Source of the DNA: an uncultured Pelagibacteraceae bacterium
GTDB taxonomy: Bacteria; Pseudomonadota; Alphaproteobacteria; Pelagibacterales; Pelagibacteraceae
Reading direction: 5' to 3'
Assembly (NCBI GenBank): GCA_902543405.1
Contig: CACBYC010000006.1
Coordinates: 1-61,588 of the forward strand
DNA length: 61,588 nt
Position 1 is the first letter of the stretch. Every line of letters begins with the position of its first letter. Positions 4,474 through 29,922 of the stretch are shown one piece after another. Under the pieces are notes generated by a model. The model made no database searches. It was not told the origin of the DNA and worked only from the letters and a program-made list of their open reading frames with translations. Position numbers and translations under genes: made by a program.

Positions 4474-4898
4474 AATTTAAAAAATTAAAAGAAAATTTTA
4501 TTGACAGTAGAGGTTCAATAACTGATATTTTTTATAAAACAAACATACAACATGTTGCAATAATTAAGTCAAAACCTAATGTCAGAAGAGGAGATCATTT
4601 TCACAAAAAAACTACACAGTGGATATTGATAACAAAAGGTTCTTTAGAATATTGGTATAAAAAATTAAATTCTAAAGAAAAACCCATGGTTAAAGTCCTA
4701 AAAGTTGGAGATTTTGTTGAAACTCCTCCGAATGAAATGCATGCTCTTAAAATTGGTAAAAACGGTAACGAATTCGTTGTATTTACGATTGGTAAAAGAG
4801 GGGGCAAGGATTATGAATCAGATACTTATCGTTTTTCTCCATCATTAATTAAATCTAGGAAGAAAAATGAAAATTATAAAATTACAAAACAATTATAA
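4470..4898 (+). CDS. Cupin sugar-modifying protein (RmlC/WxcM/FdtA-like)
   Basis: A 142-residue single cupin of the kind that isomerises or epimerises nucleotide-linked keto-deoxy sugars. The DSRGSITDI start (12-20), the histidine pair in GDHFHKK (H43 and H45) and H91 in PPNEMHAL are the usual cupin ligand or catalytic positions, and GSLEYWYKK is the central strand region. The start overlaps the C-methyltransferase stop by four bases, so the two are translationally coupled. Ketoisomerase (FdtA/QdtA-like) and 3,5-epimerase activities are both possible, and I cannot separate them from sequence alone. A second, degenerate copy follows immediately. Confidence 0.75.
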   Translation: MKFKKLKENFIDSRGSITDIFYKTNIQHVAIIKSKPNVRRGDHFHKKTTQWILITKGSLEYWYKKLNSKEKPMVKVLKVGDFVETPPNEMHALKIGKNGNEFVVFTIGKRGGKDYESDTYRFSPSLIKSRKKNENYKITKQL

Positions 4899-5244
4899 GG
4901 ATTTAAGAGGGTCTATAAGTGATATTTTATATAAAAAAAAAATTAAGCATATTTCTCTAATAGTATCTAACAAAGGCGCTATTAGAGGGAATAATTACTT
5001 TAAAAAAAATGTTCAATATATTTTCAATCTATCAAGTCCTTTTGAGTATTGGTATAAAAAGCTAGGATCAAAAAAAAAACCAAAAAGAATTCTTGTAAAA
5101 AAAAATGACTTGTTATTTACACCTAAGTTAGAAATACATGTTTCTAAATTCATGAAAAAGAACAAGCTTTTAGAATTTTCTACTCTCAGTTATAAAGAAA
5201 AAAAAAAATTTAAGGATTCAACTAGATATATTTTAATTAAGTAA
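4867..5244 (+). CDS. Second, degenerate cupin paralog lacking the metal/catalytic histidines
   Basis: This 125-residue protein aligns with the preceding cupin position by position and without a gap for roughly the first 95 residues: DLRGSISDI against DSRGSITDI, and FEYWYKKLGSKKKP against LEYWYKKLNSKEKP. It therefore arose by tandem duplication. However, GDHFHKK of the first copy is GNNYFKK here, so H43 and H45 are replaced by Asn and Phe; only H91 remains. It begins inside the first copy, overlapping 32 bases in another frame. It could be a structural partner of the first cupin in a heteromer, a binding protein, or a decaying copy. The frame is intact. Confidence 0.65.
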   Translation: MKIIKLQNNYKDLRGSISDILYKKKIKHISLIVSNKGAIRGNNYFKKNVQYIFNLSSPFEYWYKKLGSKKKPKRILVKKNDLLFTPKLEIHVSKFMKKNKLLEFSTLSYKEKKKFKDSTRYILIK

Positions 5245-5379
5245 ATAATAAAACTATTATTTGTTGATATTTTTAATAATTCTAGCCTATATCTTAATTA
5301 ATTAAATACATTTAACTGATAAAATTGTATGATATTAATAAAAAAATCATAATTAATTAATTTTAAAAGTATTTAAAAG

Positions 5380-6102
5380 TTGAACAATTTTTATTTTTTT
5401 TTATCAAAGATTTTAAACCCATTATTAAATCCTTTAAATATTTTATTTTTATTTTTAATAGTATTAGGTTTCTCCTACTTAAAATCAAAAAATAAACTTA
5501 TATTTAAGATATTTATATTAAATATCACGATAATTACATTAATAGCTTTTTTACCTTTGGGAAAATATGGCTTAAATTATCTTGAAAAAGATTTTCAAAA
5601 CCAAAAGCAATACAAAAATATATCAAATATTTTAGTACTACCTGGTGCTGACTCCAGAATAATAGCTTCTGTTAATCTAGCTAACTTCTATAAAAAATCT
5701 AAAATTTATTACATAGGTTTAAACTTTTATAATGATGAGAAGAATTCATCCTACGATGTTCGTGCTAGAAATTTTTATGAGAATATGAATTTTGATATGA
5801 ATAGAGTTAAATTTGTTGGTACCTCGAAAAATACAATTGAAAATTTAACTGAAATTGAAAATTTAAAACTAAAAGACTCTGAAACAATCTTGCTTACCTC
5901 TGCTTATCATATGAAAAGATCTATTATGATCGCTAAGAAAAAAAATTTAAATCTTTTGCCTTATGCAGTTGATATTGCTTCAAAAGATAATAAAAATTTA
6001 TTAAATACCTACAAATCTTTTGATGTAGTAAATAATATGATAAAATTTAATTTATTTTTTAGAGAAATTATTGGAATTTTTGCTTTTAAAATATTCTATT
6101 AA
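5380..6102 (+). CDS. YdcF/ElyC-like DUF218 membrane protein
   Basis: The 240 residues have two N-terminal membrane segments (about 20-33 and 41-60) followed by a DUF218 domain, so the domain probably lies on the periplasmic side. Conserved DUF218 signatures are LVLPGADSR at 86-93, the STSKNTIEN-like segment at 149-155 and TSAYHMKRS at 173-181. Relatives such as ElyC and SanA affect cell-envelope synthesis; the chemistry is unknown. The only start upstream of the first membrane segment is TTG at 5380, because an in-frame TAA lies at 5374. There is no clear ribosome binding site. It closes the envelope-related island. Confidence 0.75.
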   Translation: MNNFYFFLSKILNPLLNPLNILFLFLIVLGFSYLKSKNKLIFKIFILNITIITLIAFLPLGKYGLNYLEKDFQNQKQYKNISNILVLPGADSRIIASVNLANFYKKSKIYYIGLNFYNDEKNSSYDVRARNFYENMNFDMNRVKFVGTSKNTIENLTEIENLKLKDSETILLTSAYHMKRSIMIAKKKNLNLLPYAVDIASKDNKNLLNTYKSFDVVNNMIKFNLFFREIIGIFAFKIFY

Positions 6103-6140
6103 TTATGAAAAACACTATTAATACTTACTTTTTTCATAAT
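6102..6140 (+). terminator. Inverted repeat after the ydcF-like gene, possible weak terminator
   Basis: ATTATGAAAAA at 6102-6112 is perfectly complemented by TTTTTCATAAT at 6130-6140, with a 17-base loop. A T-rich stretch follows at about 6152-6165. The stem has few G:C pairs, so termination would be weak. It overlaps the stop codon of the preceding gene and separates the envelope genes from DAHP synthase. Confidence 0.35.
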
Positions 6141-6198
6141 AATTAAAAAATTTTCTTTTTTTTTTAAAACAAATATATATACAAGTCTAGATTGAATT

Positions 6199-7578
6199 AT
6201 GAAAAAATGGACAGCCAATAGTTGGAGAAACCATCCAGTAAAGCACATACCTGAGTATAAGAATGAAGATGAGCTTAATTTGGTTTTAAATAAATTAAGA
6301 AACTTCCCTCCATTAGTATTTGCAGGAGAAACTAGACACCTTAAAGATCAATTAGCAAACGTTGTTGATGGTAAAGCTTTCTTATTACAAGGTGGAGATT
6401 GTGCTGAGAGCTTTGCAGAATTTAACCCAGATAATATTAGAGATTATTTTAAACTAATGCTTCAAATGTCATTAGTATTGACTTATTCAGCATCTTTGCC
6501 AGTAGTAAAACTAGGAAGGATTGCTGGTCAGTTTTCAAAACCTAGAAGTGCTCCTACAGAAAAGCAAGGAGATCTAGAGCTACCAAGTTATTTAGGAGAC
6601 AATATTAATGGTATGGAATTCACAGAGGCAGCAAGAGTCCCAGATCCAAAAAGATTATTTAGAGCATACTCTCAATCAGCCTCTACATTAAATTTAATAA
6701 GAGCATTTTCTAATGGTGGATTTGCTGATTTAAAAAAAGTCCATCTATGGAATTTAGGTTATATCAAATCTGCTGCACAAGCTAAAAAATTCAAGGAATT
6801 AGAAGATAAAATTGCAGATGCTCTAGCTTTCATGGAAGCTTGTGGAATTACATCAGACTTTAACAGAAGATTATACACTGTTAATTTCTGGACATCGCAT
6901 GAAGCGTTGCATTTGCCATTTGAGGAAACTATGACAAGAATAGATTCTACCACTGGTGAATATCATGATACCTCTGCACATTTTGTATGGATAGGAGACA
7001 GAACAAGACAAATTGATGGTGGTCATGTTGAGTTTTGTAGAGGTATTGAAAATCCAATTGGAATTAAATGTGGTCCAACTTCTAAACCCGAAGAGATAGC
7101 TAAAATTTGTGAGCTGATAAATCCTAAAAATGATAAAGGTAAAATTACATTAATTTCTCGATTTGGCCACGATCAAGTAGAAAAATATTTACCAAAACTT
7201 ATACGAGGAATTAAAAAAGAGGGACTTAACGTAATCTGGTCATGTGACCCAATGCATGGAAATACGATTAAATCAACCACAGGATTTAAAACAAGACCTT
7301 TTAACAACGTTTTAAATGAAGTTAAAAATGTATTTAGCGTACATCAAAGCGAAGGATCATATGCAGGAGGACTTCATATTGAAATGACTGGTCAAAATGT
7401 GACAGAATGTACTGGTGGAGCACAAAAAATATCAGATACAGATTTATCAAGCAGATATCACACTCAATGTGATCCAAGACTTAATGCTAACCAAGCCCTA
7501 GAGTTAGCTTTTTTAATTTCAGATGAGATTAAAAAGAATACCTTGTATGCTAAAAACGGTATTAGAGCGGCATCTTAA
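6199..7578 (+). CDS. Class II 3-deoxy-7-phosphoheptulonate (DAHP) synthase
   Basis: It joins phosphoenolpyruvate and erythrose 4-phosphate, the first step of the shikimate pathway. The sequence belongs to the class II (plant/AroA-II) type: GGDCAESF at 65-72 with the metal cysteine C68, KLGRIAGQFSKPRS, a GIKCGPTSKP segment and a C-terminal SEGSYAGGLHIEMTGQNVTECTGG. The 459 residues equal the usual length. ATG at 6199 gives MKKWTANSWRNHP, the normal class II beginning. There is a 96-base leader upstream. No fused regulatory domain is visible. Confidence 0.95.
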   Translation: MKKWTANSWRNHPVKHIPEYKNEDELNLVLNKLRNFPPLVFAGETRHLKDQLANVVDGKAFLLQGGDCAESFAEFNPDNIRDYFKLMLQMSLVLTYSASLPVVKLGRIAGQFSKPRSAPTEKQGDLELPSYLGDNINGMEFTEAARVPDPKRLFRAYSQSASTLNLIRAFSNGGFADLKKVHLWNLGYIKSAAQAKKFKELEDKIADALAFMEACGITSDFNRRLYTVNFWTSHEALHLPFEETMTRIDSTTGEYHDTSAHFVWIGDRTRQIDGGHVEFCRGIENPIGIKCGPTSKPEEIAKICELINPKNDKGKITLISRFGHDQVEKYLPKLIRGIKKEGLNVIWSCDPMHGNTIKSTTGFKTRPFNNVLNEVKNVFSVHQSEGSYAGGLHIEMTGQNVTECTGGAQKISDTDLSSRYHTQCDPRLNANQALELAFLISDEIKKNTLYAKNGIRAAS

Positions 7579-19110: not shown

Positions 19111-19880
19111 TAATTATATGGAGGCCTTTTATAACCTTTAACAGATTCTGTAAAAATTTCATAAGAGTCTTCTGTAATTCCTATTGTATGCTCAAATTGT
19201 GCAGATAAAGACTTATCCTTTGTAACTGCTGTCCATCCATCATTAAGGACTTTCACATCTAATTTACCAACATTTATCATAGGTTCTATTGTAAAGGTCA
19301 TACCAGGTGTTAGTTCTTGACCAGTATTTTTTTTACCATAGTGAAGAATATTAGGTTGTTCATGAAAAGTATTGCTAATACCATGTCCACAAAAATCTCT
19401 AACTACTGAAAAACCCTTTTCTTCAACAAAGGATTGAATTTCAAATCCAATATCTCCTAATTTTACACCTGGTTTTAAAATTGATATTCCTTTCATCATC
19501 GACTCGTAAGTTGTGTCAATTAAGTTTTTAGCTTTTACTGGAATATCTCCAATGGTAAACATTCTACTGGTGTCACCGTAGTAATCATTAACTATAGCTG
19601 TTACATCAATATTAACTGCATCTCCTTCATTTAATATTCTATCAGAGGGTACGCCATGACAAACAACATGGTTTAATGATGTGCAAAGTGATTTTTTAAA
19701 ACCTCTGTAGTATAATGGGGCAGAGTGGCCACCATTGTCTCTTATAAATTCATAACCCAATTGATCAATTTTATCTGTCGACACGCCCTCTTTGACTTCA
19801 CTCGTAAGCATATCTAAAGTTTGAGATGCAAGTTTTCCAGCAATCCTCATTTTCTCAAATTTTTCTGAATAATTACTCAT
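19110..19880 (-). CDS. map: Methionine aminopeptidase, type I
   Basis: It removes the N-terminal methionine from new proteins. The expected metal ligands are visible: D92 in NIDVTAIVNDYYGD, D103, the histidine of FCGHGISNTFHEQP and the late glutamates in TIEPMI and SAQFEHT; H75 in HVVCHG is also conserved. The 256 residues lack a zinc-finger extension, as usual for bacterial type I enzymes. It overlaps sfsA by eight bases and shares one base with purB. Confidence 0.95.
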   Translation of the reverse strand: MSNYSEKFEKMRIAGKLASQTLDMLTSEVKEGVSTDKIDQLGYEFIRDNGGHSAPLYYRGFKKSLCTSLNHVVCHGVPSDRILNEGDAVNIDVTAIVNDYYGDTSRMFTIGDIPVKAKNLIDTTYESMMKGISILKPGVKLGDIGFEIQSFVEEKGFSVVRDFCGHGISNTFHEQPNILHYGKKNTGQELTPGMTFTIEPMINVGKLDVKVLNDGWTAVTKDKSLSAQFEHTIGITEDSYEIFTESVKGYKRPPYN

Positions 19881-20559
19881 CTAAAATTTTTATTTTCTTT
19901 TCAATTTTTATTTCTTTAGAATTTAAGCTGCATCTGTAAGCAAGAAAGCTTACACCAGACTTTTTAGCATCTAAATATTCTTCATAATAATTAGAGTCTA
20001 TATCTTTTGCTATTCTAAAATTATTTATACCCTGAATTTGAGTTAAAAATAAGACATAAGGTTTATATCCTTTTTTAATTGATTCTTTTAACTTTTTAAG
20101 GTGTTTTGTGCCCCTAGAAGTAACAGCATCCGGAAATTCTGCTACATCATCCTCCCTCATTAATGTTGTATTTTTTACTTCTAATATTTTTTTATCACAC
20201 AAAAAATCAAATCTAGTATCATCAGAATACTTAAATTCTGCTCTAATATTTTTTATAGAACTAAATTCTTTTATTAATTTATTCTCTAAAGCATGTTCGA
20301 CAATCCTATTTGCTCTATGTGTATTTACCCCAATTATTCTTTTTTTTACTTTTATCATCTCTAGGGTAAATTTTAATTTACGTTTAGGATCATTATGCTC
20401 GCTCACCCAAGCCTCATTTCCTTGATCCAATAAACCCATCATAGAACCTGTATTTGGACAATGTGCTACAAGAGTTTTATTATTTACTTCTATATCTGTG
20501 AAAAATCTCTTATATCTCCGTTGTAATTTGCCTTTTAATAAAGTGTTGGTAAATTTCAT
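19873..20559 (-). CDS. sfsA: SfsA family protein (sugar fermentation stimulation)
   Basis: A conserved protein of uncertain job; E. coli SfsA binds DNA non-specifically and the fold has a nuclease-like core. The N-terminus FTNTLLKGKLQRRYKRFFTDI is the typical OB-like beginning, CPNTGSMMG and the FDFLCDKKILEVKNTTLM (acidic, nuclease-like) segment follow, and FPDAVTSRGTKHLKKL is the family's best signature. The length is 228. It is the first gene of the minus-strand unit; only 22 bases separate its start from the divergent CinA-like gene. Confidence 0.93.
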   Translation of the reverse strand: MKFTNTLLKGKLQRRYKRFFTDIEVNNKTLVAHCPNTGSMMGLLDQGNEAWVSEHNDPKRKLKFTLEMIKVKKRIIGVNTHRANRIVEHALENKLIKEFSSIKNIRAEFKYSDDTRFDFLCDKKILEVKNTTLMREDDVAEFPDAVTSRGTKHLKKLKESIKKGYKPYVLFLTQIQGINNFRIAKDIDSNYYEEYLDAKKSGVSFLAYRCSLNSKEIKIEKKIKILDE

Positions 20560-20581
20560 AGAATTTTATTTATATTTGGAA

Positions 20582-21334
20582 ATGACTAATAAAAAAGAAA
20601 TATCTGCAGCAATTATCATTATAGGTAATGAGGTGTTGTCCGGTAGAACAAAAGATTTGAATACAAGTACATTAGCTACTTGGCTTAATTCTCTTGGGAT
20701 TTCTGTTAGAGAGGTAAGAGTAATTCCTGATGTGGAAAAAACCATAGTAGATACTGTTCATGAGTTAAGAGATAAATACAACTATGTGTTTACTACAGGT
20801 GGTATTGGTCCAACTCATGATGACATAACAGCAGAATCAATTGCAAAAGCTTTTAATATTGAATATGGATTTCATAAAGAGGCATTTGCAATTTTAGAAA
20901 AATATTATGAACCAGGTAATTTTAATGATGGTAGACAAAAAATGGCAAAGATGCCAGTAACAGCTAATTTAATTTTAAATCCAACTAGTGGCGCTCCAGG
21001 CTTTTATGTAGAAAATGTTTTTTCTCTTCCAGGCGTTCCGTCTATATTAAAAGCAATGATTGGTGGACTTGGCAATGTATTAGTAGGTGGCGACCCAATT
21101 CTTAGTAAAACAATAAATTTGATGACTTATGAAAGTGAAATAGCAAGCTCATTAACTAATGTTCAAGATAATAACAAAGATGTAGAAATTGGTAGCTATC
21201 CTTTTTTTAGACAAGGTAAATTAGGAGTATCAATAGTATTAAGATCAAAAAATCAAGATAAAATAAACCTGTGCAACTCACTAATCCTTGAATTTGTAAA
21301 AGAAAAAAATATTAAAATAGTTGAACTAGAGTAA
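20582..21334 (+). CDS. CinA-like / MoaB-type molybdopterin-binding domain protein
   Basis: A stand-alone N-terminal CinA (COG1058) domain of 250 residues. The binding signature GNEVLSGRTKD is at 15-25 and TTGGIGPTHDD at 71-81. The usual C-terminal nicotinamide-nucleotide amidase domain of CinA is missing, so a pyrophosphatase role on a nucleotide such as ADP-ribose or a damaged NAD(P) is possible, but not shown. ATG at 20582 is used; longer frames to 20498 would run into the divergent sfsA gene. It shares one base with the next gene. Confidence 0.85.
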   Translation: MTNKKEISAAIIIIGNEVLSGRTKDLNTSTLATWLNSLGISVREVRVIPDVEKTIVDTVHELRDKYNYVFTTGGIGPTHDDITAESIAKAFNIEYGFHKEAFAILEKYYEPGNFNDGRQKMAKMPVTANLILNPTSGAPGFYVENVFSLPGVPSILKAMIGGLGNVLVGGDPILSKTINLMTYESEIASSLTNVQDNNKDVEIGSYPFFRQGKLGVSIVLRSKNQDKINLCNSLILEFVKEKNIKIVELE

Positions 21335-21741
21335 TGTTGTATTTTGCTTACGGAAGTAATCTTAATCTTTTTCAAATGAAGCGGAGATGCAAAGACTCTG
21401 TTTTCTTAAAAAAATATGAACTTAAGGGTTACAGATTAAACTTTAGAAGTAAATATAGAGCTGCTGATATAGAAAAGAGTGTAAATTCTTTTGTTCCTGG
21501 TGCTTTATTTGAAATATCAAAAAGCGATGAAAAAAAACTAGATGTTTATGAAGATTATCCAATCCTTTATAAAAAACTTTATTTTGCCTATTACAATAAG
21601 ACAGTGATGACTTACATCATGGTTAATAAAACTGAATTTAGATATCCAACTGAAAGATATTTAAATGTAGTAAAGCGAGGATACAAAGATTGTAAACTCA
21701 ATATGAAATATTTAAAAATTGCCCTACAGCCAGTTAAGTAA
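21334..21741 (+). CDS. Gamma-glutamylcyclotransferase-like (AIG2/GGCT fold) protein
   Basis: The fold's substrate loop YGSN is at 6-9 in LYFAYGSNL and the likely general acid/base glutamate is E73 in LDVYEDYP; PGALFEI precedes it. These enzymes release 5-oxoproline from gamma-glutamyl compounds, such as glutathione or gamma-glutamyl amines. The 135-residue protein is a single domain. It overlaps the CinA-like gene and azlC by one base each, so all four plus-strand genes to azlD are probably one transcript. Confidence 0.8.
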   Translation: MLYFAYGSNLNLFQMKRRCKDSVFLKKYELKGYRLNFRSKYRAADIEKSVNSFVPGALFEISKSDEKKLDVYEDYPILYKKLYFAYYNKTVMTYIMVNKTEFRYPTERYLNVVKRGYKDCKLNMKYLKIALQPVK

Positions 21742-22427
21742 TGTTTACAAAAAAACAATTATTAACGAAGGGTTTATTGTCTGTAGCGCCTCATATGTTT
21801 TCAGTAATTCCTTTTGGAATTGTTTGTGGTGCAATTGGCATTGAGCTCGGTTTTAGCCCTGTATTAGTTTACGCAATGTCTATCATTATTTTTGGTGGTG
21901 CGTCTCAAATAGTATTCTTACAATTGCTTTCTGGAGGAGCATCTGCGTTAATAGCGGTTACATCAGTAGGTGTAATTAATTCTAGACACTTATTATATGG
22001 GGCAGTTTTATCTGAATATTTAGAAAAACTCTCTTTTATCAAGAAGCTATTGATATCTTATTTAGTAGTAGACCAGGGGTTTGCCGAGTCGAACAGGTTC
22101 TTTCAAAAAAATAAAAATGAACCATATCTTCATTATCATTTACTAGGTTCAGGAGGCACACTTTGGATTTGTTGGCAGTTAGCAACATTGTCTGGAATAA
22201 TTCTTGGCTCATTTGTGCCAGAGGAACTTGGATTGAAATTTGCAGTTCCTCTAACTTTTATTGCAATTGTTGTTCAGGATTTAAAAAAATTAGACCACGT
22301 AATTGTAATGATTAGCTGTGGTTTAAGTTCTTTACTATTTTTTGATGCACCTTTTAAATCATATATAATTATTTCACCAATTATTGCATTATTTGTTGCA
22401 GCATTAGTTTTGAGGTTAAAAAAATGA
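21741..22427 (+). CDS. azlC: AzlC family amino acid exporter subunit
   Basis: A multi-spanning inner-membrane protein that with AzlD exports branched-chain amino acids or their analogues. SVAPHMFSVIPFGIVCGAIGIELG and the NSRHLLYGA segment with its charged residues are family marks; five to six membrane spans are visible. The 228 residues are typical. The stop overlaps the azlD start by four bases (ATGA). Confidence 0.9.
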   Translation: MFTKKQLLTKGLLSVAPHMFSVIPFGIVCGAIGIELGFSPVLVYAMSIIIFGGASQIVFLQLLSGGASALIAVTSVGVINSRHLLYGAVLSEYLEKLSFIKKLLISYLVVDQGFAESNRFFQKNKNEPYLHYHLLGSGGTLWICWQLATLSGIILGSFVPEELGLKFAVPLTFIAIVVQDLKKLDHVIVMISCGLSSLLFFDAPFKSYIIISPIIALFVAALVLRLKK

Positions 22428-22735
22428 CCTGGTTGTCAATTATAATAGCGGGGATAATTACTTACTTTACAAGAATGACTATGGTTGCATTAGTAGATAG
22501 AGATTTATTAGGTGAGAAAGTAAAAGCAGTATTAGCATATGTTCCATCTGCAGTGTTTCCAGCAATAATATTTCCTGGAATATTTATTAATGAGCATGGA
22601 ACATATATAGAAATATATGATCCAAAAATATTTGGAGCAATTATTGCCATATTGGTTGGTTATTTTTCAAGAAATGTAATTGCCACAATATTATCCGGAC
22701 TATTTTCATATTGGATTATCATATTTTTATTATAA
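22424..22735 (+). CDS. azlD: AzlD family amino acid exporter subunit
   Basis: The small partner of AzlC, 103 residues with three to four membrane spans. The N-terminus WLSIIIAGIITYFTRMT and YVPSAVFPAIIFPG are the AzlD pattern. The ATGA overlap with azlC ensures coupled translation. The substrate of this pair is not determinable; branched-chain amino acid export is a family-level guess. Confidence 0.9.
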   Translation: MTWLSIIIAGIITYFTRMTMVALVDRDLLGEKVKAVLAYVPSAVFPAIIFPGIFINEHGTYIEIYDPKIFGAIIAILVGYFSRNVIATILSGLFSYWIIIFLL

Positions 22736-22744
22736 AATTTACTT

Positions 22745-23641
22745 ATGAGTATCACTACATTTGAAAATAACTTTTATAAAAAGAATGGCTACTTAGTTAA
22801 AGATCAACTTATTTCTAGAAAAGAGATCGATAAATTAAATGTTCTTATTAAAAAGATTGTTACAAAAGAAAAGAAGAGCAGAAAGAAAGTTAAAGACCAA
22901 GGAGGCACACAAAGTTATGATAATTACCACTTTGTATTCAATAGCAACTCTACAAAAAATAAAGAAATATTAAGATTAAATAACCCTCAAAATAACAATA
23001 AGCTATTTTATAATTTATCAAGGAATAAAAAAATAATTGATATTGTTAAAAAACTTATTGGTGGAACAGTAAGATTTCACCTAGGAAAATTAAATTTTAA
23101 ATTACCAAATAAGAAAAAGGGGAGTTTAGTCGAGTGGCATCAGGACTTTGCTTTTTATCCACACACAAATGACGATTTAATTACAGTCGGTATTTATCTT
23201 GAAGATTGTTATGAAAAAAATGGTCCATTAAAGGTTATAAAAGGTTCTCATAAAAAAGAATTATTTAGTCATCATAGCAATGATAATTACTTTGTAGGTA
23301 AAATTAATACTAAAAAAAATAAGATTAATTTTAAAAAGTCAGTTTCGTTAACTGGTAAAGCAGGCTCTGTTGCATTCTTTCATTGTCGAACAATTCATGG
23401 TTCAGGTTTAAACCATACTGATGGCTCAAGACCTCTAATACTATTTGGTTATAGAGCGTGTGATGCATGGCCTATTATTAATGATGGTAATCCTCATCCA
23501 GAAACAAATTTTGTAAATTATGATAAAAATATTATTTATGGGAAAAAATCAATTGCTCCAAGGTGTACTAAAGTTCCTATTATTATACCGTTGCCTAAAA
23601 AGAAACATTATGTATCAATTTATCAATTACAAAAAAGCTAG
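22745..23641 (+). CDS. Phytanoyl-CoA dioxygenase (PhyH) family Fe(II)/2-oxoglutarate oxygenase
   Basis: A non-haem iron oxygenase that would hydroxylate a small substrate with 2-oxoglutarate and oxygen. The iron ligands are H132 and D134 (EWHQDFAFYPH) and H218 (CRTIHGSGLNHT), with R229 for 2-oxoglutarate. The 298 residues match the family. Substrates range from phytanoyl-CoA and mycosporine-like compounds to phosphonates and taurine-type molecules, so the function remains open. A short gap of nine bases follows azlD; the C-terminus overlaps the next gene's signal peptide by 32 bases. Confidence 0.85.
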   Translation: MSITTFENNFYKKNGYLVKDQLISRKEIDKLNVLIKKIVTKEKKSRKKVKDQGGTQSYDNYHFVFNSNSTKNKEILRLNNPQNNNKLFYNLSRNKKIIDIVKKLIGGTVRFHLGKLNFKLPNKKKGSLVEWHQDFAFYPHTNDDLITVGIYLEDCYEKNGPLKVIKGSHKKELFSHHSNDNYFVGKINTKKNKINFKKSVSLTGKAGSVAFFHCRTIHGSGLNHTDGSRPLILFGYRACDAWPIINDGNPHPETNFVNYDKNIIYGKKSIAPRCTKVPIIIPLPKKKHYVSIYQLQKS

Positions 23642-25661
23642 TAAGCTTTTTTTTATTTCTTTTATTTTTTTAAGTATTTGTAATTTAAGTTATTCCAATA
23701 TTGTCGAAGAACTCACAGCATTAAATAATCTTTACAAACAGGGTGCTATCACAAAAGAAGAATATTCTAAAGCAAAATCAATTATTTTAAAATCAGAGAG
23801 TAAAGTAACCAGCAAAGATACTAAAAAAGTAGAACCAGATAAAAAAATTAAAAAAGAAAATTTTTCAAAAGAGGAAGTCAATGAAGAAGCTAAAGATTTT
23901 GATTTAACAAAAACATATGTTTCACTTGAGGAATTTAATCAACTTGGAACTTATGTAAAAATAGATAAATATCCTCATGGATTGTTTAAAGCTTTAGGAT
24001 CACCTAAAAATACCGCTAAAGATGCAATGATGAGAATGTATTCGACTTTTGTCCAAAAACCGAAATTACTTGAAAAATATCCAGAGAACATGATGAAAGC
24101 AATGGCTTATTTTGAGGTCTTTTATAATTATGAACTTAAAGATAAAGAAAAGTCGATAGAAAAATTTAAAAATAATTATCCAAATATCAATTGGAAAACA
24201 AAAAAAGACATTAAAACGCTGTATTCATTAAATAATGCAAAAAAATCAATGAGGGAGGCCATGTCTTTAAACAAGGATAATACACTCGATGAGGCTTTAG
24301 ACAGATATATGTTTATGCATAATTTTTTAAAGCCCGCAAAAAAAATTACACACACACTTTCTAAAGAGGAAAAAAAATTAAAAAATGAAAACTCTAAATT
24401 CAAAAAAAATTACGGAAATTTAAAAAAAACTTTTTCAGAAAAAATTGAAAAAAGAATTGATGATAAGGATTTTAAAAAGCAATTAAATAAAAACGTAAAA
24501 TATATAAAAAAATCTTTTAAAAATATTTCAAAATCAAATCATAAATCAAAGGATTTATATTCCTCTCTCAACGATATATTTCTTAAATCAATGGATTATT
24601 ATGATGCATGTAAACCTAATTGCTCATCAAAAGAATTGAATGTAGTTATTAATGCAATTGATGTCAATTTATCAATTTTAAAAGAATTCGAACCAAAAGT
24701 AATAAAAAAAAAATATTCACAAAATATGGATGATTTAAATTTAGATGAATTGAAAGAGGAAGATCAAGCAACATTAGCTTTAATAACATCTAAATTAAAA
24801 ATTAAAAAAAAAATTGATTCTGAAAATACTCAGAAAGCTATATTAAATTTAGAAACAAATGGATTTGATTTAGATACTAGCTTAAATAAATTAGAAAACG
24901 ATGGTTTTGAAGTTAAATCGATATTTATGTCTTTTGATACTTTGGACAACATGAAAAGATGGGCCATGAAAGATTGGGCTAATTCTTGGCGAGGTGAATT
25001 ACCAAGCGAAATTAAAGACAGTGCAGGAAATATTATTGAATTTACAGATGAAAACGTAAAAGATATCAAAGCACAACTTGCTTATAATTCATTTAAATCT
25101 CTAATTGATAATTCTGATTTAAAAAATGCAATAAGTGATAATATAAATCAAAATATTCAGGATATTGCTCAAGAAATTAAAGAGAGTGGTTCATTTAATA
25201 TAGATTCATGGTTATCACAAGATTTTAGCATTTCTTTAAATAATTATAGTCAGTTAGTAGGAAATTCGCTTGGTATAGAATTAAATAATTTTGATGATCT
25301 TACTCAAACAGTTAATGAATTGTATGGAACTAATATGTCTGCAGAGGAGTATGCAGCATCTTGGGAATCATCACAATATTTGGAAGGGTCATCAACCTGG
25401 GGAGATGTAACTAGAGGTGTAGATTTGATAAATCAACTTGGATCATTTGATGCTGCATCTATAGCTAAGGAATTAGGAACAGATTTAAGCACCGTTGCAG
25501 ATAGTATTGTTGCAGCGGCAAATGTTGGTGTTTCAACAGATTTAGAAGCTGCAGCACAAGGACTTGGATACTCAAGTTTTGCCGATGCTGTTAAAGCTTA
25601 CAATGAACAATATGGAACCAATTATACTGTAGACTCTGCTAAAGAAGCATTAGGACAATAA
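23610..25661 (+). CDS. Large secreted protein with SHOCT-like N-terminus and C-terminal repeats
   Basis: I recognise no enzyme here. The ATG at 23610 gives a signal peptide (about residues 1-29, ending SLSYS-like NLSYS) and was preferred over an in-frame ATG at 23520 inside the preceding gene. Residues about 31-58, with LNNLYKQGAITKEEYSKAK, match the SHOCT oligomerisation motif, normally found at C-termini. A lysine-rich helical middle (about 60-450) follows, with a CKPNC pair. The last 200 residues change character: acidic, Ala- and Ser-rich, with two copies of a FDD/FAD...NExYGTN unit. It is probably periplasmic or outer-surface; 683 residues. Confidence 0.7.
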   Translation: MYQFINYKKASKLFFISFIFLSICNLSYSNIVEELTALNNLYKQGAITKEEYSKAKSIILKSESKVTSKDTKKVEPDKKIKKENFSKEEVNEEAKDFDLTKTYVSLEEFNQLGTYVKIDKYPHGLFKALGSPKNTAKDAMMRMYSTFVQKPKLLEKYPENMMKAMAYFEVFYNYELKDKEKSIEKFKNNYPNINWKTKKDIKTLYSLNNAKKSMREAMSLNKDNTLDEALDRYMFMHNFLKPAKKITHTLSKEEKKLKNENSKFKKNYGNLKKTFSEKIEKRIDDKDFKKQLNKNVKYIKKSFKNISKSNHKSKDLYSSLNDIFLKSMDYYDACKPNCSSKELNVVINAIDVNLSILKEFEPKVIKKKYSQNMDDLNLDELKEEDQATLALITSKLKIKKKIDSENTQKAILNLETNGFDLDTSLNKLENDGFEVKSIFMSFDTLDNMKRWAMKDWANSWRGELPSEIKDSAGNIIEFTDENVKDIKAQLAYNSFKSLIDNSDLKNAISDNINQNIQDIAQEIKESGSFNIDSWLSQDFSISLNNYSQLVGNSLGIELNNFDDLTQTVNELYGTNMSAEEYAASWESSQYLEGSSTWGDVTRGVDLINQLGSFDAASIAKELGTDLSTVADSIVAAANVGVSTDLEAAAQGLGYSSFADAVKAYNEQYGTNYTVDSAKEALGQ

Positions 25662-26058
25662 AATTAACTAAAAAATAATTCCTAAAAGACTTAGTATTAA
25701 CAATGCTTCCATTCCAACAAACACAATTAGTTTTTACGATTTATATAAGTTAGGTCTTGATTATGTTTTTCAATTGCCCACCCATCATTTGCACGAGCAT
25801 GAGGATGGACAATTAAGAGGATCACGAAAGCTACTAAATGAAGAAAAAAGAATAATGATAATCTCACGATTCTATTTCTAAAATATTGATTTGTTTTAAT
25901 TAGGTTCTAATTTCGTTACGATTATGAAAAAATATCACATTTTAAACACATATTATTTTGGGTATAAGACTAATATATGAAATATATTTTATTAGGTGCT
26001 GCAATTGCTTTTGCAATGTATCTTGGTGATAAATACATCCTTTAAAAAGTTGAAATAA
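25662..26058 (+). other. 397-base stretch without a confident gene
   Basis: The longest gap in the window. Bases 25672-25881 are an open frame of about 70 codons (KIIPKRLSINN... to ...ISRFYF) with no ATG, GTG or TTG near its start, containing THHLHEHED; it could be a gene remnant. Two small ATG frames follow: 25924-25980 (18 codons) and 25977-26045 (22 codons), which overlap by ATGA. No hairpin terminator, tRNA or obvious riboswitch was seen. Confidence 0.45.
25977..26045 (+). CDS. Possible 22-residue membrane microprotein
   Basis: The frame encodes MKYILLGAAIAFAMYLGDKY plus two residues, a single hydrophobic segment with a positive start. It ends 13 bases before the next gene and is preceded by an 18-codon frame overlapping it by four bases. 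No strong ribosome binding site is visible. Membrane microproteins often look like this, but a chance frame of this size in AT-rich DNA cannot be excluded. Confidence 0.3.
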   Translation: MKYILLGAAIAFAMYLGDKYIL

Positions 26059-26502
26059 ATGAGTGCTGAAGCAATAAATTTTAATTGGAAATGTAAACAT
26101 ACCTGGAGAAGAAGTGCCAAGAACACAGCCTGGTGCTTGTTAGGTTGTGCTATTGGTGATTTTGGAACTATATTATTTTTTCAAATAACCAAAATCCCTT
26201 TCCCAGTATTAAGTATTATGATTTTAGCAATAATTAATGGTTTAATTACAAGTGTAATCTTAGAGACATTTATTTTAATGAAACAAAGTTTTACCTTTCA
26301 AAAAGCATTAAAGACTGCGTTAGGCATGAGCTTTATTTCTATGATTAGTATGGAAGTTGCAATGAATATTACAGATTATGTATTAACAGGAGGAGCAATG
26401 CTTACCTGGTGGGTAGTTCCCATAATGCTAGCAGTTGGATTTGTTACTCCTTGGCCTTACAATTATTGGAGGCTTAAAAAACATAATCAGGCTTGTCATT
26501 AA
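26059..26502 (+). CDS. DUF4396-like integral membrane protein
   Basis: A 147-residue protein with about four membrane spans and an N-terminal soluble tail. The N-terminal pattern CKHTWRRSAKNTAWCLLGCAIGDFGTI, with three cysteines and a histidine, resembles DUF4396 proteins, for which no function is established; a metal link is often suspected from the Cys/His pattern. It starts 13 bases after a possible microprotein and precedes a small hypothetical gene and a DUF4149 protein, all in one direction. Confidence 0.7.
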   Translation: MSAEAINFNWKCKHTWRRSAKNTAWCLLGCAIGDFGTILFFQITKIPFPVLSIMILAIINGLITSVILETFILMKQSFTFQKALKTALGMSFISMISMEVAMNITDYVLTGGAMLTWWVVPIMLAVGFVTPWPYNYWRLKKHNQACH

Positions 26503-26529
26503 ATTAAATTAATTAACTAAAGGACCAAA

Positions 26530-26715
26530 ATGAGAATATTAAAAGAATTAGAAGATGCAAAATTAGTAATTGTTGATTTAGAAGTAAAGTTAGGAGAAGA
26601 GGTAAGAAGTGCACCAACTTTATGTGCTAAATATAAAGGTAAAATTATACCTCTTAATACTGCACATGATGGAAGACCAATATTAATGAATGAAGAAAAC
26701 TCAATAGAAAACTAA
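26530..26715 (+). CDS. Small hypothetical protein, 61 residues
   Basis: No family recognised. The sequence MRILKELEDAKLVIVDLEVK suggests a short soluble alpha/beta peptide with one cysteine (residue 32). A good ribosome binding site, AAAGGACC, lies just upstream, and the gap to the following gene is three bases, both of which support a real gene. It sits between two membrane-protein genes. There is no signal peptide or membrane segment. Confidence 0.55.
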   Translation: MRILKELEDAKLVIVDLEVKLGEEVRSAPTLCAKYKGKIIPLNTAHDGRPILMNEENSIEN

Positions 26716-26718
26716 ATT

Positions 26719-27108
26719 ATGATTGAACAGATTAGTATTTATTTTACAGCAATGATTTTGGGTATTATGTTATTCTTTTCATTTGTTATTGCTCCAGTAG
26801 TATTTACTACTTTAGATGAAGATAATGCTCGAAAGTTCATAAGAAGAATATTTCCTTTTTACTATAATGTTAACTTAGGATTAAGTTTAATTGTTTTATT
26901 AACTTTTTTATTCTTAAGCAAACTAGGTTTAGATTTTTACTTAATTTTAGTAATCACACTTTTATTTGCTACCTCAAATTACTTATTAATGCCTTTGATT
27001 AACAAATATAGAGATGAAAAGAAGGATAAAAAATTTAAATATTCACACTTTATATCTGTTGTGATTAATTTTGTTCAGATGTTATTCTTAGTAGTTATGT
27101 TAATTTAA
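26719..27108 (+). CDS. DUF4149 (TMEM205-like) membrane protein
   Basis: The 129 residues form about four membrane spans. The pattern ILGIMLFFSFVIAPVVFTTLDEDNARKFIRRIFPFYYNV near the N-terminus is typical of DUF4149, including the F...AP..F and the arginine-rich loop. Function is unknown in bacteria. The stop overlaps the next start by one base (TAATG), so it is cotranslated with the hydratase. Confidence 0.75.
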   Translation: MIEQISIYFTAMILGIMLFFSFVIAPVVFTTLDEDNARKFIRRIFPFYYNVNLGLSLIVLLTFLFLSKLGLDFYLILVITLLFATSNYLLMPLINKYRDEKKDKKFKYSHFISVVINFVQMLFLVVMLI

Positions 27109-27890
27109 TGAACAAATTATCTTCAAAAGAATTAGATTTATATTCAAATCAAATTCTTGAAGATTATGATGCAAAAAAACCCAGCCAAATATTTAAAAAT
27201 AAAGTAAAGGTAAGTAACGAAGATGCTTTACTTATTCAAAATAAAGTAACAGAATTAAGAGTATCAAGAGGTGAGGAGGTAATAGGTTACAAAATAGGCT
27301 GTATTTCAAAAGACACTCAAAAAAAAATGGACCTTTCTCATCCAGCAAAAGGTACACTTTGGAAGCGTGAATTACATCAAAGCGGTACTGAACTAAATAA
27401 AAAGGATTATTTCAATCCTGCTATGGAAGCAGAATTTGGAGTTATACTTAATCGAGATATTAATCCAGACCTAGTATCATTTGATTATATACTAGAGTCT
27501 GTTCAATCAATTTATCCCTTAATAGAAATACATAATTTAGTTTTTAATGGAGATGCTCCAAATGGTGCAGAACTTTTAGCCAATAATGCAATTCATGCTG
27601 GAGTTATTTTAGGACCAGAGAACAAAGTTCCAAACAGCAATGAAATCACTGATTTAAAACTAGTCTATGACAATGAAGTAGTTGATAAATGGATAGATAA
27701 AAAATGGCCTTTTGATATGCTTGGAGAAATAGAGTGGTTAGTGAAAGATAAAGCAAAAACAAATAATATCTTAAAAAAAAATGATTTAATTTTGACCGGA
27801 GCCTATGGTTTTCCTGTTCCAATTAATGAGAAGAAGTTGATCGAAGTTACTTCATCAGCTTTTGGAGATGTAGCCTCAACATTTGTTTAA
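27108..27890 (+). CDS. 2-keto-4-pentenoate hydratase/FAH-like (MhpD family) protein
   Basis: It belongs to the fumarylacetoacetate hydrolase fold, which binds a divalent metal and acts on 2-keto acids (hydratase, decarboxylase or hydrolase). GYKIGCISKDTQKKM and the metal site PAMEAEFGVIL, with its paired glutamates, plus LLANNAIHAGVILG are the visible family marks. The length of 260 is normal for MhpD-like enzymes. No aromatic degradation genes are nearby, so an assigned pathway would be a guess. Its stop shares a TTAA with the convergent neighbour. Confidence 0.8.
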   Translation: MNKLSSKELDLYSNQILEDYDAKKPSQIFKNKVKVSNEDALLIQNKVTELRVSRGEEVIGYKIGCISKDTQKKMDLSHPAKGTLWKRELHQSGTELNKKDYFNPAMEAEFGVILNRDINPDLVSFDYILESVQSIYPLIEIHNLVFNGDAPNGAELLANNAIHAGVILGPENKVPNSNEITDLKLVYDNEVVDKWIDKKWPFDMLGEIEWLVKDKAKTNNILKKNDLILTGAYGFPVPINEKKLIEVTSSAFGDVASTFV

Positions 27891-29107
27891 ATGTAGCGCA
27901 TATTGTCTTCATTTACTGCTTTCTCCAATCTTATCAAAAAATCAGGTATAGCACTTTTAACTCTACTCCATGTTGGAATAAAAGGTGTGTCCATTGGATT
28001 TTGATAGAAAGCATCACCAGCTTTTATTATATTGGCTGCGAATAGCTCAACTGCTTTTTCCTCAGTATGAGAATCGAATTTCAATCCATTCATTTGAGCA
28101 TCGTTTCTATATGCATCTATCAAATCTAATGCAGCTCTATAATAAGTTGCTTTTAAAGATCTAAACTGTTCTTTGCTGAATGAGTGGCCTTGAGTGGCTA
28201 ATTTTTTTATAAATGTTTTAATTATATCAATGGACATTCTTGATAGTCCTTGTTTTTCATTATTGATTGATAAATTTTGATGTTTGTGATCGTATGTGTC
28301 AGCTAAATCTACCTGACAAATATTTTGTGGAGAAAAATTTCTTTGCATTTCAGATAAAATTCCAATCTCAATTCCCCAATCTGAAGAAATTCTTAATTCT
28401 GGAAGAATATTTCTCCTAAATGAAAATTCTCCTGCTAGAGGATATTTAAAAGATTTCATAAAGTTAAGATAATCACTGTTACCGATAGTTTTCTCTAATG
28501 CATTCAATAATGGAAATACAAGTAATCTAGCAACTCTTCCATTCATTTTGTTATCTGCAACTCTTGGATAAAAACCTTTGCAAAATTCAAAATTAAATAG
28601 TGGATTTACAACAGGATAGAACAATTTAGCCAACATTCTTCTATCATATGTTTTTATATCACAATCATGCAAAGCAACAGATCTTGCACTATCTCTTGCA
28701 ATAGACATTCCAATACAATACCAAACATTTCTACCCTTCCCGTATTCGTTTGGAGCAAGTTTTAATTTTTTTAATTCTTTATCTAATTTTTTAAGACTGG
28801 GTCCATCATTCCAAAGAATTGTAAAAGGTGTTTCTAATTTTTCAAAGAAAGTCCAAGCTTTTCTTGCTTCAGCCTCAGTTGCTTTATCTAAGCCTATTAT
28901 TATGTGATTTAGATAATTTGTTTTACTTATTTCACTTACAATTTTAGGTAGCGCATCACCTTTTAACTCAGAATAAAGACAAGGCAAAATTAGTTCCATC
29001 TTTCTTTCTTTGGAAAAATTTAATAAATCTTTCTCTAGATCTTTGGTTGACTTGGTGCCAAAGTCATGAAGTGTTGATATAGTGCCATCTTGATAGAAAT
29101 CACTCAT
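27887..29107 (-). CDS. Glucosyl-3-phosphoglycerate synthase-like GT-A glycosyltransferase (GT81-type)
   Basis: It probably transfers glucose from a nucleotide sugar to 3-phosphoglycerate; with the phosphatase gene just upstream the product would be glucosylglycerate, a compatible solute. The metal-binding DCD is at 148-150 in ALHDCDIKTYDRRML, preceded by GKGRNVWYCIGMSIARDS, and AGEFSFRRN and SDWGIEIGIL follow, as in GpgS and mannosylglycerate-related enzymes. The 406-residue size fits. The acceptor specificity is inferred from family. ATG at 29107 is 14 bases after the phosphatase gene. Confidence 0.75.
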   Translation of the reverse strand: MSDFYQDGTISTLHDFGTKSTKDLEKDLLNFSKERKMELILPCLYSELKGDALPKIVSEISKTNYLNHIIIGLDKATEAEARKAWTFFEKLETPFTILWNDGPSLKKLDKELKKLKLAPNEYGKGRNVWYCIGMSIARDSARSVALHDCDIKTYDRRMLAKLFYPVVNPLFNFEFCKGFYPRVADNKMNGRVARLLVFPLLNALEKTIGNSDYLNFMKSFKYPLAGEFSFRRNILPELRISSDWGIEIGILSEMQRNFSPQNICQVDLADTYDHKHQNLSINNEKQGLSRMSIDIIKTFIKKLATQGHSFSKEQFRSLKATYYRAALDLIDAYRNDAQMNGLKFDSHTEEKAVELFAANIIKAGDAFYQNPMDTPFIPTWSRVKSAIPDFLIRLEKAVNEDNMRYI

Positions 29108-29121
29108 GGCGGCAACCTATC

Positions 29122-29922
29122 CTAAGATTCAATTTTTTGTATAGCCGTTTTGATCACATCAGCCCATCCTAAAGGGGATGGCTCAGAAGATTTGATTAAA
29201 TTATCAATATTTATCAACGAACTATCAAAGTTATCATTTTTAACCAAACATGGATAATCAGTCTGTTTTATCATTTCTATATCATTTTCATTATCACCAA
29301 CACCAATTGTTATGATTTCATCATCCAATTGTTTTCTTATTAATTGAAGAGTTTTGGACATGGCTATTGATTTATTAACATTATCACAAACATTCATTAT
29401 TCTCCCACCAGTCTGAATAGTTAATCCAGAGTTTTTTAAAATTTTTGTAAATTCATTTTTTTCAATTTCAGTTCCATTAAATTTAATTGGTAATGAATGG
29501 TCTCTCTTAATTGCTAGCTTAATTTTATCTAATGGAAGCCCCAAGATTTTTTGCTGCACTTCTATTTCTAATTCTAAAATGTGAGTAGTTTTATTTTTAA
29601 AATCTAGGCTGATATTTTCTTCATATGCATTTCGTATTTCATTTATTGTTCTGCTTATTATTATTTTGTCAGGTAAATTATGGTGAATTTTATTTAATCC
29701 ATGAATAGATGATCCATTCTCTGTAATAAAACTTAAATCTAAATTATTCTGTTCATTAAAATCTAATAATTCAGCTTCTGTTTTACTGGAGTTTGGAATT
29801 ATTATTATACCGTTTCTAACCAGTTCTTTAAAATAATCTTTAATAACATCAAATTTAAAAGTTTCTTTATCTAATAGAGAACCATCTAAATCTGTAAAAA
29901 TTAAAATTTTTTTTTTGGGCAC
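29122..29922 (-). CDS. HAD-family phosphatase, mannosyl/glucosyl-3-phosphoglycerate phosphatase-like
   Basis: It should remove the phosphate from the glycosylated phosphoglycerate made by the next gene. The nucleophile motif DLDGSLLD is at 11-18, a lysine and substrate cap domain (HAD-IIB type) follows, and the last HAD motif GVGDNENDIEM is at 208-218. The start is GTG at 29922. The 266-residue length fits the MPGP family. It sits 34 bases from a ComA-like gene, so a sulfo or phospho analogue of glycerate should also be considered as substrate. Confidence 0.78.
   Translation of the reverse strand: MPKKKILIFTDLDGSLLDKETFKFDVIKDYFKELVRNGIIIIPNSSKTEAELLDFNEQNNLDLSFITENGSSIHGLNKIHHNLPDKIIISRTINEIRNAYEENISLDFKNKTTHILELEIEVQQKILGLPLDKIKLAIKRDHSLPIKFNGTEIEKNEFTKILKNSGLTIQTGGRIMNVCDNVNKSIAMSKTLQLIRKQLDDEIITIGVGDNENDIEMIKQTDYPCLVKNDNFDSSLINIDNLIKSSEPSPLGWADVIKTAIQKIES

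Follow-up and report, generated by a model that had tools for sequence, protein, structure and literature searches.

What kind of protein does the gene at positions 23610-25661 of the window encode, and what might it do for its cell? The window is the whole stretch of DNA analysed, 61,588 nucleotides from an uncultured bacterium of the Pelagibacteraceae (SAR11). The forward-strand frame is open for 683 residues and a stop codon. Its product is a real, constrained protein under purifying selection, since dN/dS is 0.124, 0.157 and 0.133 in three pairs of relatives. The original prediction described an unrecognised secreted protein with a signal peptide and a SHOCT-like start, whose lysine-rich centre is followed by an acidic tail of Ala/Ser character bearing two YGTN copies, and judged both its two-part composition and its size to be remarkable. 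The size is not, as the protein ranks fourth among the 70 non-overlapping open frames of the window, behind frames of 1389, 1371 and 733 residues. The two-part composition is real and arises because two modules that most relatives make as separate, exported-looking proteins, here named A and B, are fused in this one. This A-B make-up is far more secure than any function. Our preferred reading, in which A and B would form an envelope-attached complex with the tail of B as its variable working end, is tentative and as a whole has slightly less than an even chance of being right.

Modular architecture of the window protein

The window protein begins with a signal-peptide-like start (residues 1-29, positions 23610-23696) and a SHOCT-like helical hairpin (residues 33-60, 23706-23789). 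The charged Lys/Glu linker that follows (residues 62-97, 23793-23900) has the lowest conservation of the protein, with 31% mean pairwise identity. The A domain (residues 98-262, 23901-24395) is helical and is a separate protein in most relatives. It is joined by a Lys-rich coil (residues 263-315, 24396-24554) to the B domain (residues 316-470, 24555-25019), whose counterpart in relatives is the N-terminal portion of a partner protein, B. The B domain contains a close cysteine pair, CKPNC (residues 334-338, 24609-24623), which may form a disulphide, and its end overlaps a W...DWANSW...G...KAQLA module (residues 446-491, 24945-25082). The acidic Ala/Ser-rich tail (residues 536-683, 25215-25658) was found in the fused lineage only. 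All these features are on the forward strand. The charge asymmetry is as predicted: the Lys-rich middle has 34% Lys and a net charge of +13, and the tail has 2% Lys, 25% Ala and Ser, and a net charge of -17. Among long stretches, conservation is highest in the last 78 residues, with 66% mean pairwise identity, compared with 46% for A and 37% for B, in a conservation table of 15 rows from which L023, L024, L082, L031 and L151 were dropped. Repeats of similar W...DWANSW...G...KAQLA modules were seen by eye in another SAR11 B-like protein.

A and B are adjoining proteins in other SAR11 genomes

Searches with parts of the protein found the A and B domains as separate proteins, side by side, in other SAR11 genomes. 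In the window protein, the A profile matches with E 1.0e-64 and the B profile matches the same frame with E 9.1e-58, in both cases with the window row being part of the profile. With broader profiles, A was found in 25 of 247 Pelagibacteraceae genomes and B in 24. A adjoins or is fused to B in all 24 genomes with B, and in the twenty-fifth A genome (G298) the A gene lies 56 bases from a contig end. The 25 A genomes comprise 18 with separate pairs, four with YGTN-tail fusions, two with fusions to another tail (916 and 919 aa long in G216 and G300), and G298, which is cut by the contig end. B starts -20 to +5 nt from the A stop codon in 22 of the 22 separate pairs measured, which suggests translational coupling. 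This count excludes a distant pairing within L086 as well as the first fragment of an interrupted A in L150, and takes TTG as the first candidate start for L085 and L138. The stand-alone A in L086 (247 aa) is an exception, with a B-like frame located upstream, not downstream.

The fused B domain and the B domain of proteins with coiled-coil tails match in a profile-profile comparison (E 1.7e-16, probability 98.7), as do the coiled-coil and Met-rich groups (E 8.7e-9). The direct match between fused and Met-rich B is weak (E 0.015, probability 3), and the putative link between these two groups runs only through the coiled-coil group.

Several loci show further arrangements. The genome G054 (L072 and L086) carries three A genes, two of which have a B gene directly behind; the B-like frame upstream of the third holds repeated WANSW-type modules. 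An A protein at L149 4074-5678 has an N-terminal extension of ~330 residues before the A domain. Behind the Met-rich A-B pairs there is a close same-strand gene in eight of nine loci (L083, L084, L085, L137, L138, L139, L141 and L142), the ninth, L145, being near a contig start. The Met-rich pair and the following gene are likely to form a three-gene operon. The copy of the third gene from L085, the one tested, has a weak match to glycosyl hydrolase family 10 (E 4.3e-4).

Family searches and structural models

With the exception of SHOCT, no part of the protein, whether A, B or the tail, matched a described family in the libraries used, in accordance with the earlier judgement that the protein belongs to no recognised family. 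The whole protein gave only allophycocyanin in NCBIfam, at E 0.12. Among PDB sequences there was nothing for the protein or A, and the best matches had E 0.042 for B and 0.039 for the tail. In Pfam, 16 A domains gave weak matches only, each of them in a single member; four long B proteins gave coiled-coil-type and other weak matches, all under the cut-off; and four further A-B or B proteins gave nothing. In the open-access literature searched, titles and the openings of abstracts gave nothing on such an A-B pair, and no paper treated Pelagibacter together with SHOCT or combined SAR11, coiled coils, a hypervariable region and the cell surface. Within these libraries and this literature, A, B and the YGTN tail are undescribed.

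Structure prediction, which the original prediction had proposed, gave a mostly helical but poor model. The AlphaFold2 model from nine sequences has a mean pLDDT of 53.8, and that of the tail alone 57.3. Foldseek returned 0 matches at E <= 0.001 for the tail model, whose pLDDT of 57.3 is too poor to show absence. Aligned with VIA-align, the full model was covered mainly at residues 248-372, and its best modelled part is residues ~249-370, the Lys-rich coil and the first part of B. This part superposes on the helical ligand-binding bundles of the chemoreceptors McpS (Z 12.9, 2.1 Å, 111 residues) and PilJ (Z 11.5, 3.2 Å, 117 residues), but designed bundles and receptors score nearly the same, and a helical-bundle Z under about 13 may reflect only a common arrangement. 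There is no chemoreceptor-type protein among the sequence matches. The resemblance of the predicted bundle to these structures says little.

Signal-like start and SHOCT-like hairpin

The signal peptide that had been claimed is borne out as a signal-peptide-like start, judged by eye from the sequence, and cleavage would be placed near ...LSYS/NIVEE. Stand-alone A and B proteins have a signal-like start of the same layout. With its start read in this way, the protein that had been called secreted is exported-looking. Cysteines beyond residue 60 occur in 34 of the 66 different frames that matched A, B or the tail (L024 and L082 were left out of this count). A partner within 10 residues is present for 84 of these 97 cysteines, leaving 13 unpaired; 1000 random placements gave a mean of 8.4 and a maximum of 20. 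Such close pairs would fit disulphides in an exported protein. From the signal-like starts and, indirectly, the cysteine pairing, we infer that both A and B are exported.

The Pfam SHOCT domain (PF09851) matches residues 33-60 with E 4.2e-5 and 23.6 bits, under the 27-bit cut-off. The window copy reached 29.4 bits in a genome-level search, above the cut-off, and in a separate comparison the homologue L078 also passed it, at 27.9 bits. In the AlphaFold model, helices at residues 31-43 and 49-60 have moderate local confidence (block means 59-68) and form the pair of short helices with a tight turn between them that typifies SHOCT. The position differs from the predominantly C-terminal one of SHOCT domains, as the hairpin is at residues 33-60 of 683. 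The N-terminal placement, which the original prediction considered odd, has precedents in excerpts from two papers: the one that named SHOCT located it close to the N-terminus in the protein used as its query and described further N-terminal contexts (PMC3581485), and SHOCT-like domains have been reported at both termini (PMC11237479). The window motif resembles a SHOCT domain as a helical hairpin of ~28 residues. It differs in that the match covers just 28 of 683 residues, in that it is probably outside the cytoplasm, because it is placed after a signal-like start, and in that it is missing from many members of the A-B family. The stretch has 74% mean pairwise identity among only those rows that have SHOCT. 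Since many members are without it, SHOCT cannot be essential to the family.

These observations bear on whether the protein could instead be a cytoplasmic SHOCT-type membrane adaptor, the N-terminal hydrophobic stretch of which would be an anchor and not a cleaved signal. Excerpts from one study propose that SHOCT-like domains tether proteins to the membrane's inner leaflet (PMC11237479). Nevertheless, B has a signal-like start of its own, the close cysteine pairs are as expected of exported proteins, and SHOCT is dispensable in the family, so that we regard a cytoplasmic adaptor as very improbable and favour the exported A-B complex.

The YGTN tail and other tails of B

The tail of the window protein contains a first YGTN unit at residues 559-582 (25284-25355) and a second at residues 655-678 (25572-25643). 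The motif NE.YGTN occurs exactly twice in the protein, starting from 569 in the first unit and 665 in the second. Aligned with each other, the two halves of the tail score 51, which none of 2000 shuffles reached (best shuffle 50). The units are conserved among relatives, though not equally: the second copy keeps GTN in 14 of 15, and the first has the exact YGTN in only 3 of 15, although its surrounding frame persists in all except L029. A search for the repeat in other proteins, also suggested earlier, found the tail only in the same fused lineage. The tail profile matched four of 247 genomes of the family, five of 247 of the order and one of 190 of the class, the last being the genome of the window itself. 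In 17 of 17 fused YGTN relatives, the tail end is intact and at the same position. This fixed C-terminal end suggests a putative partner that would recognise the terminus. Two further candidate repeats were rejected. The tail units are not repeats of the WANSW module, the score being reached by 0.29 and 0.20 of shuffles, and a third unit between the two YGTN units was matched by 0.157 of shuffles, its six-residue identity being reached at 0.04.

Stand-alone B proteins extend from 110 to about 1450 residues beyond the B domain. Their tails are a long coiled coil, Ala-rich with C-terminal cysteine pairs, or Met/Gly/Pro-rich (15-17% Met, 21-28% Gly), and the YGTN type belongs to the fused lineage. 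B is therefore a conserved base with lineage-specific tails. Exported proteins of such modular build, in which the ends vary on a constant base, are already known.

A conserved base with variable C-terminal parts and a patchy presence would also fit a polymorphic secreted toxin or bacteriocin, in which a conserved N-terminal trafficking part carries a variable C-terminal effector. The tails are however low-complexity or coiled coil, no toxin family was detected in Pfam or NCBIfam, and there is no consistent small gene downstream as an immunity candidate. The window protein has no match among the PADLOC anti-phage defence profiles at E up to 0.1, and three of four relatives have weak partial matches. 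We consider a toxin highly unlikely.

More weight belongs to a soluble periplasmic scaffold, a helical strut that would hold envelope proteins or set the distance between membranes, with the tails as spacers that are not displayed. The mostly helical predictions, the tails of up to about 1450 residues with coiled-coil-like Pfam matches, and the paired cysteines are consistent with a strut, and Pfam detected no outer-membrane or sorting domain in the proteins searched. A change of tail type from coiled coil to Met/Gly/Pro-rich fits a spacer poorly, and the conservation of the last 78 residues of the YGTN tail is unlike that of a spacer. The scaffold is thus a possible but doubtful explanation.

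Proposed working of the A-B complex

In the preferred reading of an envelope-attached complex, A and B would both be exported through Sec. A may dock at the cell envelope, perhaps through SHOCT, and A and B would bind each other, a direct contact that the fusion predicts. The tail of B, here the YGTN tail, could then serve as the variable working end, facing outwards or spanning the periplasm, in contact, adhesion, shielding or spacing. A surface-exposed and a soluble periplasmic placement of the tail would both be compatible with the findings.

We speculate further that A as an anchor and B as a carrier constitute an envelope machine presenting exchangeable tails that are swapped between lineages, although we think this rather unlikely. 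If it were so, swapping among tails of the YGTN, Met/Gly-rich and very long coiled-coil types would alter what the cell surface contacts or evades, for instance phages, grazers or particles, and the fused gene of the window would be a compact form of the machine. SAR11 cells are dominant in ocean surface waters and have small genomes. A long, exported-looking system that is kept by selection in a minority of such small-genome lineages is therefore likely to have a specific role at the cell boundary. Through the link between A and B, what was an orphan hypothetical protein becomes a two-part complex open to testing, and its odd composition is accounted for.

Distribution and fusion history

Only SAR11 (Pelagibacteraceae) yielded full-length relatives. 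Of nine matches in the genome collection, eight span the protein wholly or for the most part, and the ninth, L031, is confined to residues 101-288; more were found in additional relatives. Beyond the family, the A profile matched only the window's own genome among 190 class and 150 phylum genomes. A phage origin was rejected: there were no relatives among 50,697 phage records, searches of viral contigs with the tail and full profiles confirmed none, and PHROGs gave weak partial matches only (best E 0.013), around the SHOCT stretch.

In a tree of 42 A-domain rows, the YGTN fusions form one group, which also includes two incomplete rows. The fusion type seen in G216 and G300 sits among separate pairs and is parted from the YGTN fusions by well-supported splits. 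The tree thus needs at least two fusion or fission events, the direction of which is indistinguishable with its midpoint root. Long branches lead to L149, L150, two rows of L086, L076, L153 and L029, and the grouping of L149 with L150 may be false. The near copies or duplicates L023, L024 and L082 (the last on the same contig as L026) and a 66-aa piece of L150, which is too short, were left out.

A clean insertion behind a PhyH-family gene

Directly upstream of the gene, on the same strand, is a PhyH-family gene (22745-23641). The first codons of the window gene overlap its 3' end in another frame (23610-23641, forward strand), and the insertion point is at its stop codon. Three relatives (G031, G005 and G004) have an empty site directly behind a PhyH-family gene of 90-92% identity. 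Relative to these, the boundaries of the gene are 23637-25660: the match breaks at 23637 and resumes at 25660, directly after the stop codon of the gene. Between genomes the gene is present or absent as one clean unit. The same site has other alleles in L025 (~71% identity) and L074 and, in L031, a truncated one; the neighbouring genes are mostly more alike than these alleles. The presence/absence pair of loci offers a natural basis for ecological comparison.

Polymorphic gene indels in SAR11 core regions have been described as a class of loci in excerpts from an earlier study (PMC2217521). Like them, the window gene is a single gene cleanly gained or lost where the neighbours are conserved, here with purifying selection; the excerpts treat the class and do not identify this gene.

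Such precise presence and absence, together with the truncation in L031 and the interruption of A in L150, could indicate a selfish or decaying insertion without host function. The dN/dS of 0.12-0.16 in three pairs disfavours this, as do the intact C-terminal ends of all 17 fused YGTN relatives, and no mobility gene was recognised by eye beside the gene in the ORF lists. An insertion without function has a very small chance of being correct.

Relatives are also present at nearby slots, in L078 after a GGACT-family gene and in L080 between CinA-like and GGACT-family genes. The SfsA, CinA-like, GGACT, AzlC, PhyH and GpgS neighbourhood (window 19873-29922) is a hot spot, in which separate (L070, L153) and fused forms (window, L074, L078, L080) occupy different slots. 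At the window's own chromosomal site, L031 has an A-only frame (4866-5687) followed by a caspase-domain frame (5671-7011; Peptidase_C14, E 4.4e-17). This is probably a recombined or truncated copy, and an assembly join is possible. The locus of another relative, L158, has at 2-874 a frame with a long His/Asp-rich repeat, which perhaps binds metal.
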